Shown: piece after piece, positions 8,003 through 13,249 of the stretch
How positions within the stretch are numbered: the stretch's first letter is position 1
How the letters are laid out: each line of letters begins with the position of its first letter
DNA from: Lachnospiraceae bacterium
Lineage (GTDB): Bacteria; Bacillota; Clostridia; Lachnospirales; Lachnospiraceae
Direction: 5' to 3'
DNA length: 45,220 nucleotides
Assembly: GCA_029005135.1 (NCBI GenBank)
Contig: JAQXFO010000040.1
Location: 1-45,220 of the forward strand
The notes under the pieces: model-generated
Databases searched by the model: none
The model's input: the letters and a program-made list of their open reading frames with translations, nothing else
Told to the model about the DNA's origin: nothing
Made by a program: the position numbers and the translations under genes

Positions 8003-8554
8003 ATGGAAGACAAACGCGTCCGAAAAAGCAAAGAAGCGCTCAAAACAGCGCTTCTGACTCTGCGATCTTCTAAAGAATTGAAGGATATCAGTGTCACGGA
8101 GCTCTGCCGCAAAGCCGGGCTCAACCGGTCCACCTTCTATGCTAATTACGCGGATATCAACGCCCTGGCGGCGGATTGTGTGACCGATCTTCTTCACTGG
8201 CTTCTTACCGATATGAACACTCAGCCGTCGGCTTCGGACGGTATGACCCGAAAAACCGTCCGGGACTCTGTCAAACGGTTTCTGACATATATGAAAGAGA
8301 ATCCGGCGATATTCCGGATTCTCTATGATTCAGAAGAACGTTTTCTTTTTGTTTCACAGATCATCGCCTACGCCGGGAGCAGCGGCCGGCCGGCTGAGGC
8401 GTGCCGGCGGTACCGGGATCTGTACTGCGTCGTCGGCGCCTTTGCCGTCACACGCCAATGGTTTCTGGATGGCTGCTCTTTTCCCGTCGAGGATATGACA
8501 ACGCTTCTTTGCACGCTGCTGTCCGCATCCGGAGAAGTCCCGATCAGTACCTGA
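8003..8554 (+). CDS. TetR family transcriptional regulator
   Basis: A 183-residue TetR/AcrR-type regulator. The N-terminal HTH spans about residues 8-55, with ISVTELCRKAGLNRSTFYANY as helices 2-3. The C-terminal helical domain resembles the TetR_C_33-type domain of Clostridia (KENPAIFRILYDSEE region) and should bind an unknown ligand. Start: ATG at 8003 with GAAAGGAAT upstream. It is divergent from the SDR gene. Its last 11 bp overlap the 3' end of truA-alkD on the opposite strand. Confidence 0.9.
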   Translation: MEDKRVRKSKEALKTALLTLRSSKELKDISVTELCRKAGLNRSTFYANYADINALAADCVTDLLHWLLTDMNTQPSASDGMTRKTVRDSVKRFLTYMKENPAIFRILYDSEERFLFVSQIIAYAGSSGRPAEACRRYRDLYCVVGAFAVTRQWFLDGCSFPVEDMTTLLCTLLSASGEVPIST

Positions 8555-9962
8555 GTGTCTTCAGATACGTCTTGGTTGCCTCCGGGATACGCCGGCTTTC
8601 ACAGGCCTTGCGGATAGTCAGGTTATGAACCGTCTTTGTCAGTTTCCGGTCCGTCAGATACCCGATGACCGCCTCGTACTGTTTTGTCAGGGCTTCGGCA
8701 AAATACCAGGCCGCGCCCATGGCGACGTAGTGATCGTCGGCGGTCAGGCCCGCCACCAGAGACGGATACTCCGGCCGGAAACGGTCATCCAGGAAAAGGC
8801 GCATCAGCAGATTGACGGCATAGCGTCTGGTAAAGGGCAGCGGTGAAGTCAGCCAGCGCCGGATGGAAGGCAGAAGTGCCTCCGCCTGAGCTGCAAAGAC
8901 CTTCGGGCAGGGAATATCACAGGTCTCCCAGTTGTCGATGAAGGGCAGCATCTCGGATACGGCCGTCAGCGCCCTGTCAAAATCCGTCATCCGGCGGATC
9001 AGTTCCATATGAAGGTCATTTTCCTCAAGATACCGATGCGGCACCGTTTCGAGAAAACGGGCCGCTTTTTCTGTCCCGTTGATGGTATCGGCATAACGGC
9101 ACAGAACAGGCCGGCGTATGCCGATGATGTCCTCCGGATTGACGGTGGGGATCAGACGGGCGGAAAAGTCATGATAGCCGTTCTCATCCTTCAGCGCCAT
9201 CAGGTCATGGCGCACCGGCGAGTCGGCATCGGGATAAGCGATCTTCTGAAGGATCAGTCCCTTCGGGATGGCGGTGGGCCCGGCGGCACGGCGGTCGGCA
9301 GCCTCCAGGATACCGGGCATGGCCTCCGCCTTCCGATAGCCCTTGCCGATATCCGCCAGTGTCCCGGCCAGAATGCGCACCATATTGTAAAGGAAGCCCG
9401 ATCCGGTGATACGGAAAATCACCCGGTCACCTTCCCGCCGCACCGAGGCATCGTAAATATGCCGCACGGTGGTTTTGGCACTGGAACCGGCGGCACAGAA
9501 GGAAGCGAAATCGTGCTCGCCGATGAGGTACCCGGCGGCCTTATCCATTTTCCTGTCATCCAGAGGCCCGTAGACATGCCACTCATAGAGGCGGCGGGTC
9601 GGATCCGGATGGGTACGGTTCAGAATATGGTATTCGTAGGTCTTGACAGTTCTCTGAAAACGGGGATGAAAGTCATCAGACACCTGTTCGGAGGCGGAGA
9701 TGCGGATGTCCTCGGGCAGACGGGCATTGAGTGCGTAGGCGATCTTGCCCGGGGCGATTCTCGTGTCCACGTCGAAAACCGCGACGTTGCCCGCGGCATG
9801 GACGCCGGTATCGGTCCGGCTGGCACTCATGGTCCTTATCGGAGTCCCGAACAGCTCGCAAAGCGCCTTTTCCAGCACATCCTGGATGGCGGTACCGTTC
9901 GCCTGACTCTGATATCCCACATAGGCGGTACCATCATAGGCCACCGTGAGTTTGATCCTCAT
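8544..9962 (-). CDS. truA: TruA tRNA pseudouridine synthase fused to AlkD-like DNA alkylation repair domain
   Basis: A single 472-codon frame with two complete modules. Residues 1-248 are TruA, which makes pseudouridine at tRNA positions 38-40. Visible are VAYDGTAYVGYQ, the catalytic S-R-T-D51-T-G-V-H-A loop, and ITGSGFLYNMVRILAGTL. Residues 252-472 match a full-length clostridial AlkD/COG4912 HEAT-repeat DNA glycosylase: DFSARLIPTVNPEDIIGIRRP, FIDNWETCD (W345, D349), AWYFAEALTKQYE (W419) and a K-T-Y-L-K-T-L-R end. The internal ATG at 9200 has no ribosome site, so separate translation of the second module is unlikely. The start overlaps the ecfT stop as ATGA. TruA normally ends near residue 250. 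An assembly error is possible, but both halves are intact and in frame. Confidence 0.88.
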   Translation of the reverse strand: MRIKLTVAYDGTAYVGYQSQANGTAIQDVLEKALCELFGTPIRTMSASRTDTGVHAAGNVAVFDVDTRIAPGKIAYALNARLPEDIRISASEQVSDDFHPRFQRTVKTYEYHILNRTHPDPTRRLYEWHVYGPLDDRKMDKAAGYLIGEHDFASFCAAGSSAKTTVRHIYDASVRREGDRVIFRITGSGFLYNMVRILAGTLADIGKGYRKAEAMPGILEAADRRAAGPTAIPKGLILQKIAYPDADSPVRHDLMALKDENGYHDFSARLIPTVNPEDIIGIRRPVLCRYADTINGTEKAARFLETVPHRYLEENDLHMELIRRMTDFDRALTAVSEMLPFIDNWETCDIPCPKVFAAQAEALLPSIRRWLTSPLPFTRRYAVNLLMRLFLDDRFRPEYPSLVAGLTADDHYVAMGAAWYFAEALTKQYEAVIGYLTDRKLTKTVHNLTIRKACESRRIPEATKTYLKTLRY

Positions 9963-10783
9963 ATGAGCTTGCCTCCGGGCAGAGATGCCCCGCAGATTCT
10001 GAAAAAGATCGAAATGCCCAGCAGCACCAGAAGCACAGCATACGCTGTATAGTCCCGGGCTGCGTAGCGGAGAGGCTTCATCTGGGTGCGGCCGTCGCCG
10101 CCGTGATAACAGCGGGATTCCATCGCCATGGCCAGATCATTGGCCCGGCGGAAGGCCGATACAAAAAGCGGTACCAGAAGAGGGATCATGGCCTTGAGGC
10201 GGCGCAGGAAGCTGCCGGATTCAAAATCGGCCCCCCGGGCGATCTGAGCCTGCCGTATCTTGTCCGTCTCCTCCATAAGGATCGGGATAAAACGCAGGGC
10301 GATGGACATCATCATAGCGATCTCATGGACCGGCACATGAATCCGGCTCAGAGGCGCGAAGAGCTTCTCCATGCCGTCGGTCAGCTGGTTCGGCGTCGTC
10401 GTCAGCGTCATCAGCGAAGAACCCAGAACCAGATACATCAGGCGTATCGCCATACGGACCGCCACCTGAACGCCCTGAACCGTGATGCTGATAAAGCCGA
10501 ACCGGAAAATCTCATCCCCCGGTGTCAGCAGCAGGTTAAACAGGACCGTGACCACCAGAATGACCGTCAGCGGCTTCAGCCCGCCCAGTATGATGCGAAA
10601 GGGAACCCGCGTCAGCACCATAAGTGTAAGAAGTACCGCTGTCATGAAGACATAACCGAGAGTACCCTTCACAAGAAAAAGCGCCACAATATAAATCAGC
10701 GTGCCGAGAAATTTGACCCGGGCATCCAGCCTGTGCAGGATGGAGTCCGACGGATAATACTGTCCAAGTGTAACGTCACGCAT
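9959..10783 (-). CDS. ecfT: ECF transporter transmembrane subunit EcfT
   Basis: A 274-residue membrane protein, the T component that couples the EcfA ATPases to interchangeable substrate-binding S proteins for vitamin or cofactor uptake. It has about five transmembrane segments and the two coupling-helix motifs, ARGADFES (about 175-182) and the later MESRCYHGG. The ATG at 10783 overlaps the ecfA stop by eight bases, with AGGAAA about ten bases upstream. An upstream in-frame start would extend it into ecfA. No S component is encoded nearby, so this is a group II (shared) module. Confidence 0.95.
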   Translation of the reverse strand: MRDVTLGQYYPSDSILHRLDARVKFLGTLIYIVALFLVKGTLGYVFMTAVLLTLMVLTRVPFRIILGGLKPLTVILVVTVLFNLLLTPGDEIFRFGFISITVQGVQVAVRMAIRLMYLVLGSSLMTLTTTPNQLTDGMEKLFAPLSRIHVPVHEIAMMMSIALRFIPILMEETDKIRQAQIARGADFESGSFLRRLKAMIPLLVPLFVSAFRRANDLAMAMESRCYHGGDGRTQMKPLRYAARDYTAYAVLLVLLGISIFFRICGASLPGGKLI

Positions 10784-12632
10784 GGGAGGATTTCCTTTCA
10801 AGTACACGAAGAATCTCGTGATAAGCCTCATCCACGGTCATGGCCTCGGCGGAGACAGGCAGGCCCGCTGCCTTCAGTTCGTGCATCAGATAAGTCATGC
10901 GCGGAGCCGCCAGTCCGATGCTTTCCAGCGCCTTATAATGACGGAAAACCTGCCGCGGTGTGTCGTCATAGAGGAGACGGCCGTCGCTGATTACCAGAAG
11001 TCTGTCCGCATAACGGGCGGCGTCTTCCATGCTGTGTGTGACCAGAAGGATCGTAATGCCCTGTTCGGTCTGAAGGGCCTTAAGGCAGTCGAGAATATCA
11101 TCCCTTCCGGCAGGGTCGAGACCGGCCGTCGGTTCATCCAGAATCAGCACCTGAGGATTCATGGCCAGCACACCGGCGATGGCTACGCGGCGCTTCTGTC
11201 CGCCGGAAATGTCGAAGGGAGATTCTTCGTACATCGACTCGGGAATGCCTGTCAGCGCCAGGGCTTTCCGGGCCTTCGCCTCGGCCGCAGCCTTGTCCAG
11301 TCCCTGATTCTTCGGGCCGAAACAGACGTCCGCCAGGATCGTTGTCTCAAAAAGCTGATGCTCCGGATACTGGAAAACCAGCCCCACCCGGGTTCTCAGG
11401 TTCCGGATATCAAAGGTCTTATCGGTAATATCGCAGCCCTCCCACAGCACTTCGCCCGCGGTGGGCTTGAGAAGACCGTTAAGATGCTGGATAAAAGTGG
11501 ACTTTCCGGAGCCGGTATGGCCAATCAGGGCAATAAACTCGCCGTGCCCGATACGCACTGAGATATCATCCAGGGCCCGGGAGGCGTAAACAGTACCGGC
11601 ACCGTAGTCATGGCACAGGCGGCGCGTCTCCAGAAGAGGGATTTCGCCGCGGCTGTCGCCGACACCGGTTCCGGCGGCTTCGCCGGTTTTGCCGGAAGCC
11701 GAGGCGGCGTCTTCCTCCGTCTCTTCTCCTGCCGCTTTTGCGGCCTCTCCCACGGTTTCCATCGCATTCTCCGCACCTGGTTCTGCCAGAGCCAGGATCG
11801 CGCCGCGCAGTTCTTCCTCCGTCAGAAGATCCGGTGCCACCGGATAACCGGCCCGATTCAGCTTATAAGCCAGTTCCGTCACCTCGGGCACGTCCAGACG
11901 ATAGCCCTTGAGCCTGTCGACCTGGGCAAAGATCTCGCGGGGGGTGCCTGTCATGACCAGGTCGCCCTTGTCCATGACGTAGACACGGTCGGCCCAGACA
12001 ACCTCTTCCATATAGTGTGTGATCAGAATAACGGTCACGTTTTCTTTTTCGTTCAGTTCCCGGACGACCTTGAGGACCTCCCGGCGGCCGTCGGGATCCA
12101 GCATGGCCGTCGGCTCGTCCAGCACGATGCACTGTGGGCGCATGGCCACAACGCCGGCGATAGCCACCCGCTGCTTCTGACCGCCTGACAGGCGGTTGGG
12201 CGATTTTTCCCGGAAGGCCTGCATGCCGACCTTGGTCAGGGCGTCATCCACGCGTTTCCAGATATCCTCCGTGGGCACACCGAGATTCTCGGGACCGAAG
12301 CCGGCATCCTCTTCCACCACCGTGCCGATGATCTGGTTGTCGGGATTCTGAAAGACCATGCCGGCCTTCTGACGGATCTTCCACAGTTCCTTCTCTTCGG
12401 CCGTATTACGGCCGTCGATCCAGATCGTGCCGGAGGTCGGCAGAAGAAGGGCATTGATGTGCTTGGCCAGCGTGGACTTGCCGGAGCCGTTGTGCCCCAG
12501 GACGGCTATGAACTCGCCGGGCTCGACATCCAGATCAAGACTGTTGATGGCCCGGATCTTCTCCGGTTCTTTTTCTTCATCGCTGTATTTCAGATACTGA
12601 AATCCCAGCTGTCTGGCTTTGATAATACTCAT
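10776..12632 (-). CDS. ecfA: Single-chain EcfA1-EcfA2 ATPase of the ECF transporter
   Basis: A 618-residue protein with two complete ABC ATPases. Domain 1 is EcfA1-like: Walker A GHNGSGKST (46-54), FQNPDNQ, LSGGQ (148-152), IVLDE (169-173). Domain 2 is EcfA2-like: GHTGSGKST (371-379), FQYPEHQLFE, ISGGQ (475-479), LILDE (496-500). An Ala/Glu/Gly-rich linker joins them (about 280-330). These are usually two genes. The ATG at 12632 overlaps the ysxC stop as ATGA; a TTG seven codons upstream is less likely. It powers uptake together with EcfT. Confidence 0.95.
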   Translation of the reverse strand: MSIIKARQLGFQYLKYSDEEKEPEKIRAINSLDLDVEPGEFIAVLGHNGSGKSTLAKHINALLLPTSGTIWIDGRNTAEEKELWKIRQKAGMVFQNPDNQIIGTVVEEDAGFGPENLGVPTEDIWKRVDDALTKVGMQAFREKSPNRLSGGQKQRVAIAGVVAMRPQCIVLDEPTAMLDPDGRREVLKVVRELNEKENVTVILITHYMEEVVWADRVYVMDKGDLVMTGTPREIFAQVDRLKGYRLDVPEVTELAYKLNRAGYPVAPDLLTEEELRGAILALAEPGAENAMETVGEAAKAAGEETEEDAASASGKTGEAAGTGVGDSRGEIPLLETRRLCHDYGAGTVYASRALDDISVRIGHGEFIALIGHTGSGKSTFIQHLNGLLKPTAGEVLWEGCDITDKTFDIRNLRTRVGLVFQYPEHQLFETTILADVCFGPKNQGLDKAAAEAKARKALALTGIPESMYEESPFDISGGQKRRVAIAGVLAMNPQVLILDEPTAGLDPAGRDDILDCLKALQTEQGITILLVTHSMEDAARYADRLLVISDGRLLYDDTPRQVFRHYKALESIGLAAPRMTYLMHELKAAGLPVSAEAMTVDEAYHEILRVLERKSSHA

Positions 12633-13249
12633 GTTTCGGCTATCAGTCTCCAAATATCGTCCATGCCTTCTTTGTTAAGGGCAGAAAACGGGATCACCGG
12701 CGTATCGGCACTGACCTTCAGGGCCGTGCGGATCATGCTGAGGCTCCTGTCAAGCTGGGAACGCTTGATCTTATCCTTCTTGGTTGCGATGATAACCGCC
12801 TGTTTGCCGTTTTCCACGATCCAGCGGTACATCATTTTGTCATTCTCGGAGGGCTCGTGGCGGATGTCCACCAACAGGAAGACACGGTTCAGCTGCTGAG
12901 AGGTATGCAGGTAACCCTCGATCATCCGGCCCCACTTTTCCTTTTCTTCCAGGGTGGTCTTGGCGTAGCCGTAGCCCGGCAGGTCTACGAGATAGCAGTC
13001 CGGTGCCATCCCGCGCTCAGAGACCTCCGCCGGCGCAACGCCTTCGTTGACATGATAGTAATTGATGGTCTGGGTTTTGCCCGGCCTCTCGGAGACCCGG
13101 GCATAAGCCTTCCGGTTGATCAGCGTATTGATCAGAGAGGACTTGCCCACGTTGGATTTTCCGGCAAAGGCCGTTTCGGGGACGGTCATCTGCGGCACAG
13201 TACTGGTGACGCCGATGACTTTTTCCAGATTGACCGATTTGATTTTCAT
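12629..13249 (-). CDS. ysxC: Ribosome biogenesis GTPase YsxC/EngB
   Basis: A 206-residue GTPase needed for late 50S assembly. Motifs: G1 AGKSNVGKSS (29-38), G2 region around RPGKTQTINYY, G3 DLPGYG (89-94), G4 TKKDK (156-160), G5 SALN. Compared with typical members there is an insert of some 10-15 residues between switch I and G3 (around VAPAEVSERGMAPD). The ATG at 13249 overlaps the lon stop (ATGA), and its own stop overlaps ecfA. Lon followed by ysxC is a classic Firmicutes arrangement. Confidence 0.97.
   Translation of the reverse strand: MKIKSVNLEKVIGVTSTVPQMTVPETAFAGKSNVGKSSLINTLINRKAYARVSERPGKTQTINYYHVNEGVAPAEVSERGMAPDCYLVDLPGYGYAKTTLEEKEKWGRMIEGYLHTSQQLNRVFLLVDIRHEPSENDKMMYRWIVENGKQAVIIATKKDKIKRSQLDRSLSMIRTALKVSADTPVIPFSALNKEGMDDIWRLIAET

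Follow-up and report, generated by a model that had tools for sequence, protein, structure and literature searches.

TruA is a homodimer that makes pseudouridine at positions 38-40 of transfer RNA (tRNA), and AlkD binds DNA and removes cationic N3- and N7-alkylpurines. The gene described herein joins a member of each family in one reading frame. It lies in the window, that is, the whole 45,220-nucleotide contig JAQXFO010000040.1 of the Lachnospiraceae bacterium assembly GCA_029005135.1 (genome G000). In Porphyromonas, an AlkD-like domain is fused to the C-terminus of dipeptidyl peptidase III (DPP III), and the full-length protein reportedly conferred no alkylation repair on Escherichia coli; in Bacteroides and Prevotella, DPP III and the AlkD-like protein are encoded by separate neighbouring genes (PMC5708649). 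The catalytic residues of Bacillus cereus AlkD (BcAlkD) are W109, D113, and W187 (PMC8626424), with position 187 printed as Trp187 there and as Tyr187 in PMC4433238, and AlkD2 neither excises alkylpurines nor possesses a B-helix, SmAlkD2 carrying Asn at position 187 (PMC4433238). The fusion gene and its parts are as follows.

8544..9962, minus strand: truA-alkD fusion gene, 472 codons, ATG start (open-frame list, Pfam and NCBIfam matches, same fusion in locus L032)
9228..9962, minus strand: TruA half, residues 1-245, catalytic D51 (TIGR00071; 81% identity to the sister genome G015)
9213..9227, minus strand: junction without a stop, residues 246-250 (junction DNA of both fused genes)
8547..9212, minus strand: AlkD-type HEAT-like-repeat half, residues 251-472 (Pfam DNA_alkylation, Protein Data Bank (PDB) profile match, residue mapping, model)

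A complete TruA and an AlkD-type module in one real reading frame are confirmed, as an earlier note on this DNA had proposed from its letters. The 472 codons run without interruption, and the start codon at 9962 is preceded by GGAGG. Residues 2-238 match NCBIfam TIGR00071 at 200.8 bits (equivalog cut-off, 142.85), and Pfam PseudoU_synth_1 is matched at 146.3 bits against a cut-off of 23.3. The catalytic Asp named in that note, D51 of the RTD motif (SRTDTGVHA), does not vary across the 14 rows of a TruA alignment. The second module is complete as well, with Pfam DNA_alkylation over residues 277-455 (37.4 bits; gathering cut-off, 21) and AlkD homology spanning residues 251 to 471. Since this homology starts at residue 251, the join measures 5-12 residues, varying with the chosen TruA end, and the domains do stand only a few residues apart. 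When the whole protein was used for a single-sequence PDB search, every chain matched was a TruA-type pseudouridine synthase or one of its mitoribosomal relatives.

The same fusion occurs in a second species. Of the 42 genus genomes, two contain an unbroken match to the full-length query: G000, to which the window belongs, and G015, a Lachnospiraceae metagenome-assembled genome, whose fusion (JAUNDG010000014.1) is 73% identical and whose protein (L032) also has its domains above the Pfam cut-offs. Of 30 truA loci read in the genus, 28 have their stop after 244-264 codons; the end of this gene was unreadable in four of the 42 genomes, with no match in G039, no orthologous copy in G002, and contig ends in G009 and G031. 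The earlier note had held that related genomes with separate genes and a stop near codon 250 would speak against the fusion. This arrangement is indeed that of the 28 loci, but it reveals no error: because the second species is fused too, separate genes are the usual condition. Both halves are under purifying selection, the Nei-Gojobori ratio of nonsynonymous to synonymous divergence (dN/dS) between the two fused genes being about 0.11 for TruA and about 0.19 for AlkD, values which are rough because dS is 1.3-1.6. A decaying AlkD half is disfavoured by the latter ratio together with the open frame in both species.

The frame could in principle be an artefact of assembly or sequencing, or an internal start could additionally yield a separate AlkD. 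The assembly that contains the window is a draft of 88 contigs, and possible starts do lie at the junction, namely GTG at codon 250 of both fused genes, ATG at codon 255 (position 9200) of the window gene only, and, in the sister gene, which lacks an ATG at the matching place, TTG as codon 254, preceded at a distance of about 2 bases by GGGAGG. Nevertheless, third codon positions of the two fused genes differ at 48% in TruA and 55% in AlkD; the identical frame in a separately assembled genome, with around half of these positions different, means that the two are not copies of one error. An indel of assembly or sequencing is thus very unlikely to lie behind the fusion, and the matching gene of the sister species disfavours an artefact. 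As had been pointed out from the letters, no ribosome site serves the ATG at 9200, the 20 bases upstream of which contain no Shine-Dalgarno sequence; none precedes the GTG of either gene. The GGGAGG of the sister gene sits nearer to the TTG than a usual ribosome site would, which makes an internal start there doubtful, and we regard it as unlikely. Taken together, artefact and internal start have a very small probability.

The earlier note had suggested a search for two-domain chains across Clostridia. Beyond the sister species, a whole-protein search of the family (397 genomes) and the class (393 genomes), two draws that partly overlap, gave no further TruA-AlkD chain among the matches listed. 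A fusion in close kin should rank first in such a search because both halves add to the score, and a distant one could escape. The AlkD family was matched in 273 of the 397 family genomes, where most of the AlkD matches listed sit in short frames suiting a stand-alone gene. Within the genus, AlkD of the same subfamily is present in 13 of 42 genomes (two fused, one in tandem with truA, ten elsewhere), and three more have weaker or partial matches. No published description of a TruA-AlkD fusion was found in titles and abstracts listed by searches of the open-licence PubMed Central (PMC) literature. AlkD of the fused subfamily is also encoded, at 39-40% identity, on two IMG/VR contigs (L107:1501-2160 and L108:4-654), whose DNA may be viral or flanking host. 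Six longer AlkD frames from the family and class searches, each in one genome, were read and scanned.

L067:3211-6297, minus strand: DinG/Rad3-type helicase-AlkD, 1028 aa, AlkD C-terminal
L109:2097-3533, minus strand: SASA esterase-AlkD, 478 aa, AlkD C-terminal
L111:2477-4681, minus strand: serine recombinase-AlkD, 734 aa, AlkD C-terminal; a junction GTG with a good ribosome site may start AlkD separately
L068:473-1705, plus strand: Ogt-AlkD, 410 aa, AlkD C-terminal, a single chain uniting two domains for alkylation repair (Ogt, O6-methylguanine methyltransferase)
L069:1303-2514, plus strand: AlkD-GNAT acetyltransferase, 403 aa, AlkD in front
L110:1487-2812, plus strand: AlkD-alpha/beta-hydrolase-like protein, 441 aa, AlkD in front, hydrolase-like domain under the Pfam cut-off

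The domains of L068 and L069 are distant AlkD relatives (25-28% identity; 25% for L068). As AlkD modules have such varied other partners, the TruA fusion is one of a series, which suggests that AlkD-type modules readily fuse with adjoining genes.

Around the fusion gene, the window contains the following neighbours.

9959..10831, minus strand: ecfT, upstream neighbour, 4-base overlap with the fusion start (Pfam CbiQ)
10776..12653, minus strand: ecfA1-ecfA2 in one 625-codon frame (TIGR04520 at 12-285, TIGR04521 at 343-615)
8003..8554, plus strand: TetR-type regulator gene, convergent, 11-base overlap with the 3' end of the fusion

The position of truA directly behind ecfT is shared with the relatives read. 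When the DNA was scanned for promoters and terminators, nothing resembling a promoter was found, and the five terminator-like sites were not used. EcfA1 and EcfA2 also share a single frame in G015 (L060 4286-6157) and in G013 (L048 6053-7870), and their matches occupy different frames in G001 and G035. Directly behind the G015 fusion (L060:8551-9983, plus strand) lies a gene pair that we take to resemble an AbiE-type toxin-antitoxin system. G000 encodes another TruA elsewhere (C56:8303-9034, L125), an unfused paralogue with 41% identity to the fused one, and a second TruA match is present in most genus genomes.

The gene is, in our view, likely to have arisen by an operon fusion specific to this lineage and to encode two enzymes that fold independently, each probably working as in its parent family. 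alkD would have arrived immediately downstream of truA, the last gene in an ecfA-ecfT-truA row, and the truA stop would have been lost in the common ancestor of the two species. The present locus would encode a single chain in which TruA forms the N-terminus and the AlkD-type HEAT-repeat domain the C-terminus. The TruA half, a predicted homodimer, would convert positions 38-40 of tRNA to pseudouridine; for the AlkD half, the predicted role is to bind DNA and to remove cationic N3- and N7-alkylpurines, the two halves being tied chiefly via shared expression and a short linker. We infer single-chain translation, both activities, the succession of these events, and that the halves are not directly coupled. 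The fused pair receives 100% bootstrap in the TruA, AlkD, and joined TruA+EcfT trees (4 of the 44 rows of the last without EcfT). A plausible forerunner is seen in G013, in which adjacent truA and alkD genes overlap by four bases (ATGA), alkD having a short extra N-terminus: a tandem of this type is the natural step preceding fusion, and that of G013 may be ancestral to the fusion or have arisen in parallel.

Several observations weigh against this reading. The trees set the TruA and AlkD of G013 apart from the fused pair, and its tandem may therefore be independent; as a proven ancestor it gains no support from the trees, and the approximately unbiased (AU) test leaves a common AlkD clade of G013 and the fused pair unrejected (p 0.23). 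Placement in the AlkD tree is weak because the fused domains occupy a long branch. From the second AlkD tree and from the count of conserved columns, the distant rows G025, G004, oG236, oG196, and oG224 were omitted, and the fetched locus oG360 was dropped for want of a match to the AlkD query. Among 61 near-invariant AlkD columns (conserved across 26 or more of the 27 relatives, these rows including the G013 tandem and the helicase-fused oG299), 19 are changed, ten in both fused proteins and nine in one. A346E and T423E, close to the catalytic residues, occur in both, and the stretch containing W345 belongs to the least certain parts of the structure models. Given the long branch and the changed columns, the AlkD half may have a modified activity or none. 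The fused AlkD might then no longer be a glycosylase and might serve TruA as an appendage, structural or for binding nucleic acid, that could for instance hold tRNA or stabilise the dimer, an alternative that deserves serious attention and is nonetheless rather unlikely. W345, D349, and W419, which correspond to BcAlkD W109, D113, and W187 by profile alignment and numbering, are kept in both fused proteins, whereas Asn occupies position 187 of SmAlkD2 (PMC4433238); the fused W419 thus departs from the AlkD2 state. The AlkD profile matched BcAlkD in the PDB at E 1.1e-6, and SmAlkD2 was not among its matches up to E = 1. At the N-terminus, where AlkD carries an A-B-C helix cap whose B-helix probes DNA, the model of the AlkD half (mean predicted local distance difference test, pLDDT, 85.5) has helices 2-9 and 13-20 ahead of helix 34-44, in blocks at pLDDT 67-80, so that a short helix stands at the expected place of the B-helix with modest confidence. 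Separating AlkD from AlkD2 by fold comparison ended in a tie, with unrelated HEAT-repeat proteins scoring close; Foldseek with the AlkD model found nothing within E 0.001, its best match being AlkD at 2.1e-3. For the full protein, the predicted TM-score (pTM) is 0.53 and residues 247-283 and 345-348 fall below pLDDT 50, and therefore no claim is made on the mutual placement of the two domains. Genome context also favours a retained role for the AlkD half. PF08713 has one match each in G000 and G015, the fusion itself; Tag and AAG have no match in G000, G015, or G013, and AlkZ none in G000 or G015, these families being matched in 5, 3, and 5 of 14 control genomes, respectively. HhH-GPD has two matches in each fused genome, best read as MutY and Nth, even if MutY in both genomes and Nth in G000 miss the NCBIfam equivalog cut-offs and the G015 Nth call rests on 83% identity to that of G000; G013 has a third, Ogg-like match. 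An Ogt-type match is present in both fused genomes. No other recognised alkylpurine glycosylase family was found in G000 or G015, which argues against an appendage, with the limit, to be set among the points against two working enzymes, that the AlkA-specific family was not searched.

A direct coupling of the TruA and AlkD activities is possible. Both species have retained the fusion under constraint on each half, which, together with the short linker, would suit a coupled enzyme whose halves act on one pathway, repairing alkylated tRNA bases or linking alkylation stress to tRNA modification. Such an enzyme is improbable, however, as AlkD-family modules occur with varied partners, no second origin of a TruA-AlkD fusion appears among the matches listed, and the genome also has its second, unfused TruA. 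The earlier note had proposed that the fusion would join RNA modification to base-damage repair in one polypeptide, and as a claim of a working unit this found no support: that AlkD joins six other partners, and that the DPP III fusion was reportedly without repair (PMC5708649), weakens a reading of functional coupling. We therefore offer the RNA modification-DNA repair link as a hypothesis. Less probable still is a recruitment of the AlkD half to RNA beside TruA at the tRNA anticodon arm, where it would recognise or remove alkylated tRNA purines; the protein would then be a tRNA modification-and-repair enzyme, and the changed active-site surroundings would reflect the new substrate.

For the favoured operon fusion of two enzymes, the interest lies in a domain pairing that is new to the literature searched and common to two species, in which an RNA-modifying and a DNA-repair enzyme meet in a natural construct. 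The readiness of AlkD-type modules to fuse with neighbouring genes, as suggested by the frames read, warns against inferring function from such fusions by association. Compared with known systems, the window protein resembles TruA (TIGR00071; PDB 1dj0, 2nqp) in the whole domain, the catalytic Asp, and the place behind ecfT, a fold search giving 36% identity between its TruA half and the E. coli enzyme, and differs from it by the 222-residue C-terminal AlkD-type domain. This domain shares with B. cereus AlkD (PDB 3bvs) the HEAT-like-repeat fold, Pfam DNA_alkylation, and the equivalents of W109, D113, and W187, and differs in its fusion behind TruA and in a structural-alignment identity of 10-16%. 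The DPP III-AlkD of Porphyromonas likewise carries an AlkD-like domain C-terminal to an unrelated enzyme, with separate neighbours in relatives, but its partner is a peptidase, unlike TruA, and the full-length fusion is reported to be without alkylation repair in E. coli. AlkD is again C-terminal, with other partners, in the DinG/Rad3-type helicase (L067), SASA esterase (L109), and Ogt (L068) fusions. Of these, Ogt-AlkD is the one AlkD fusion where a shared function does make sense since, unlike the TruA fusion, it joins two DNA alkylation-repair functions.
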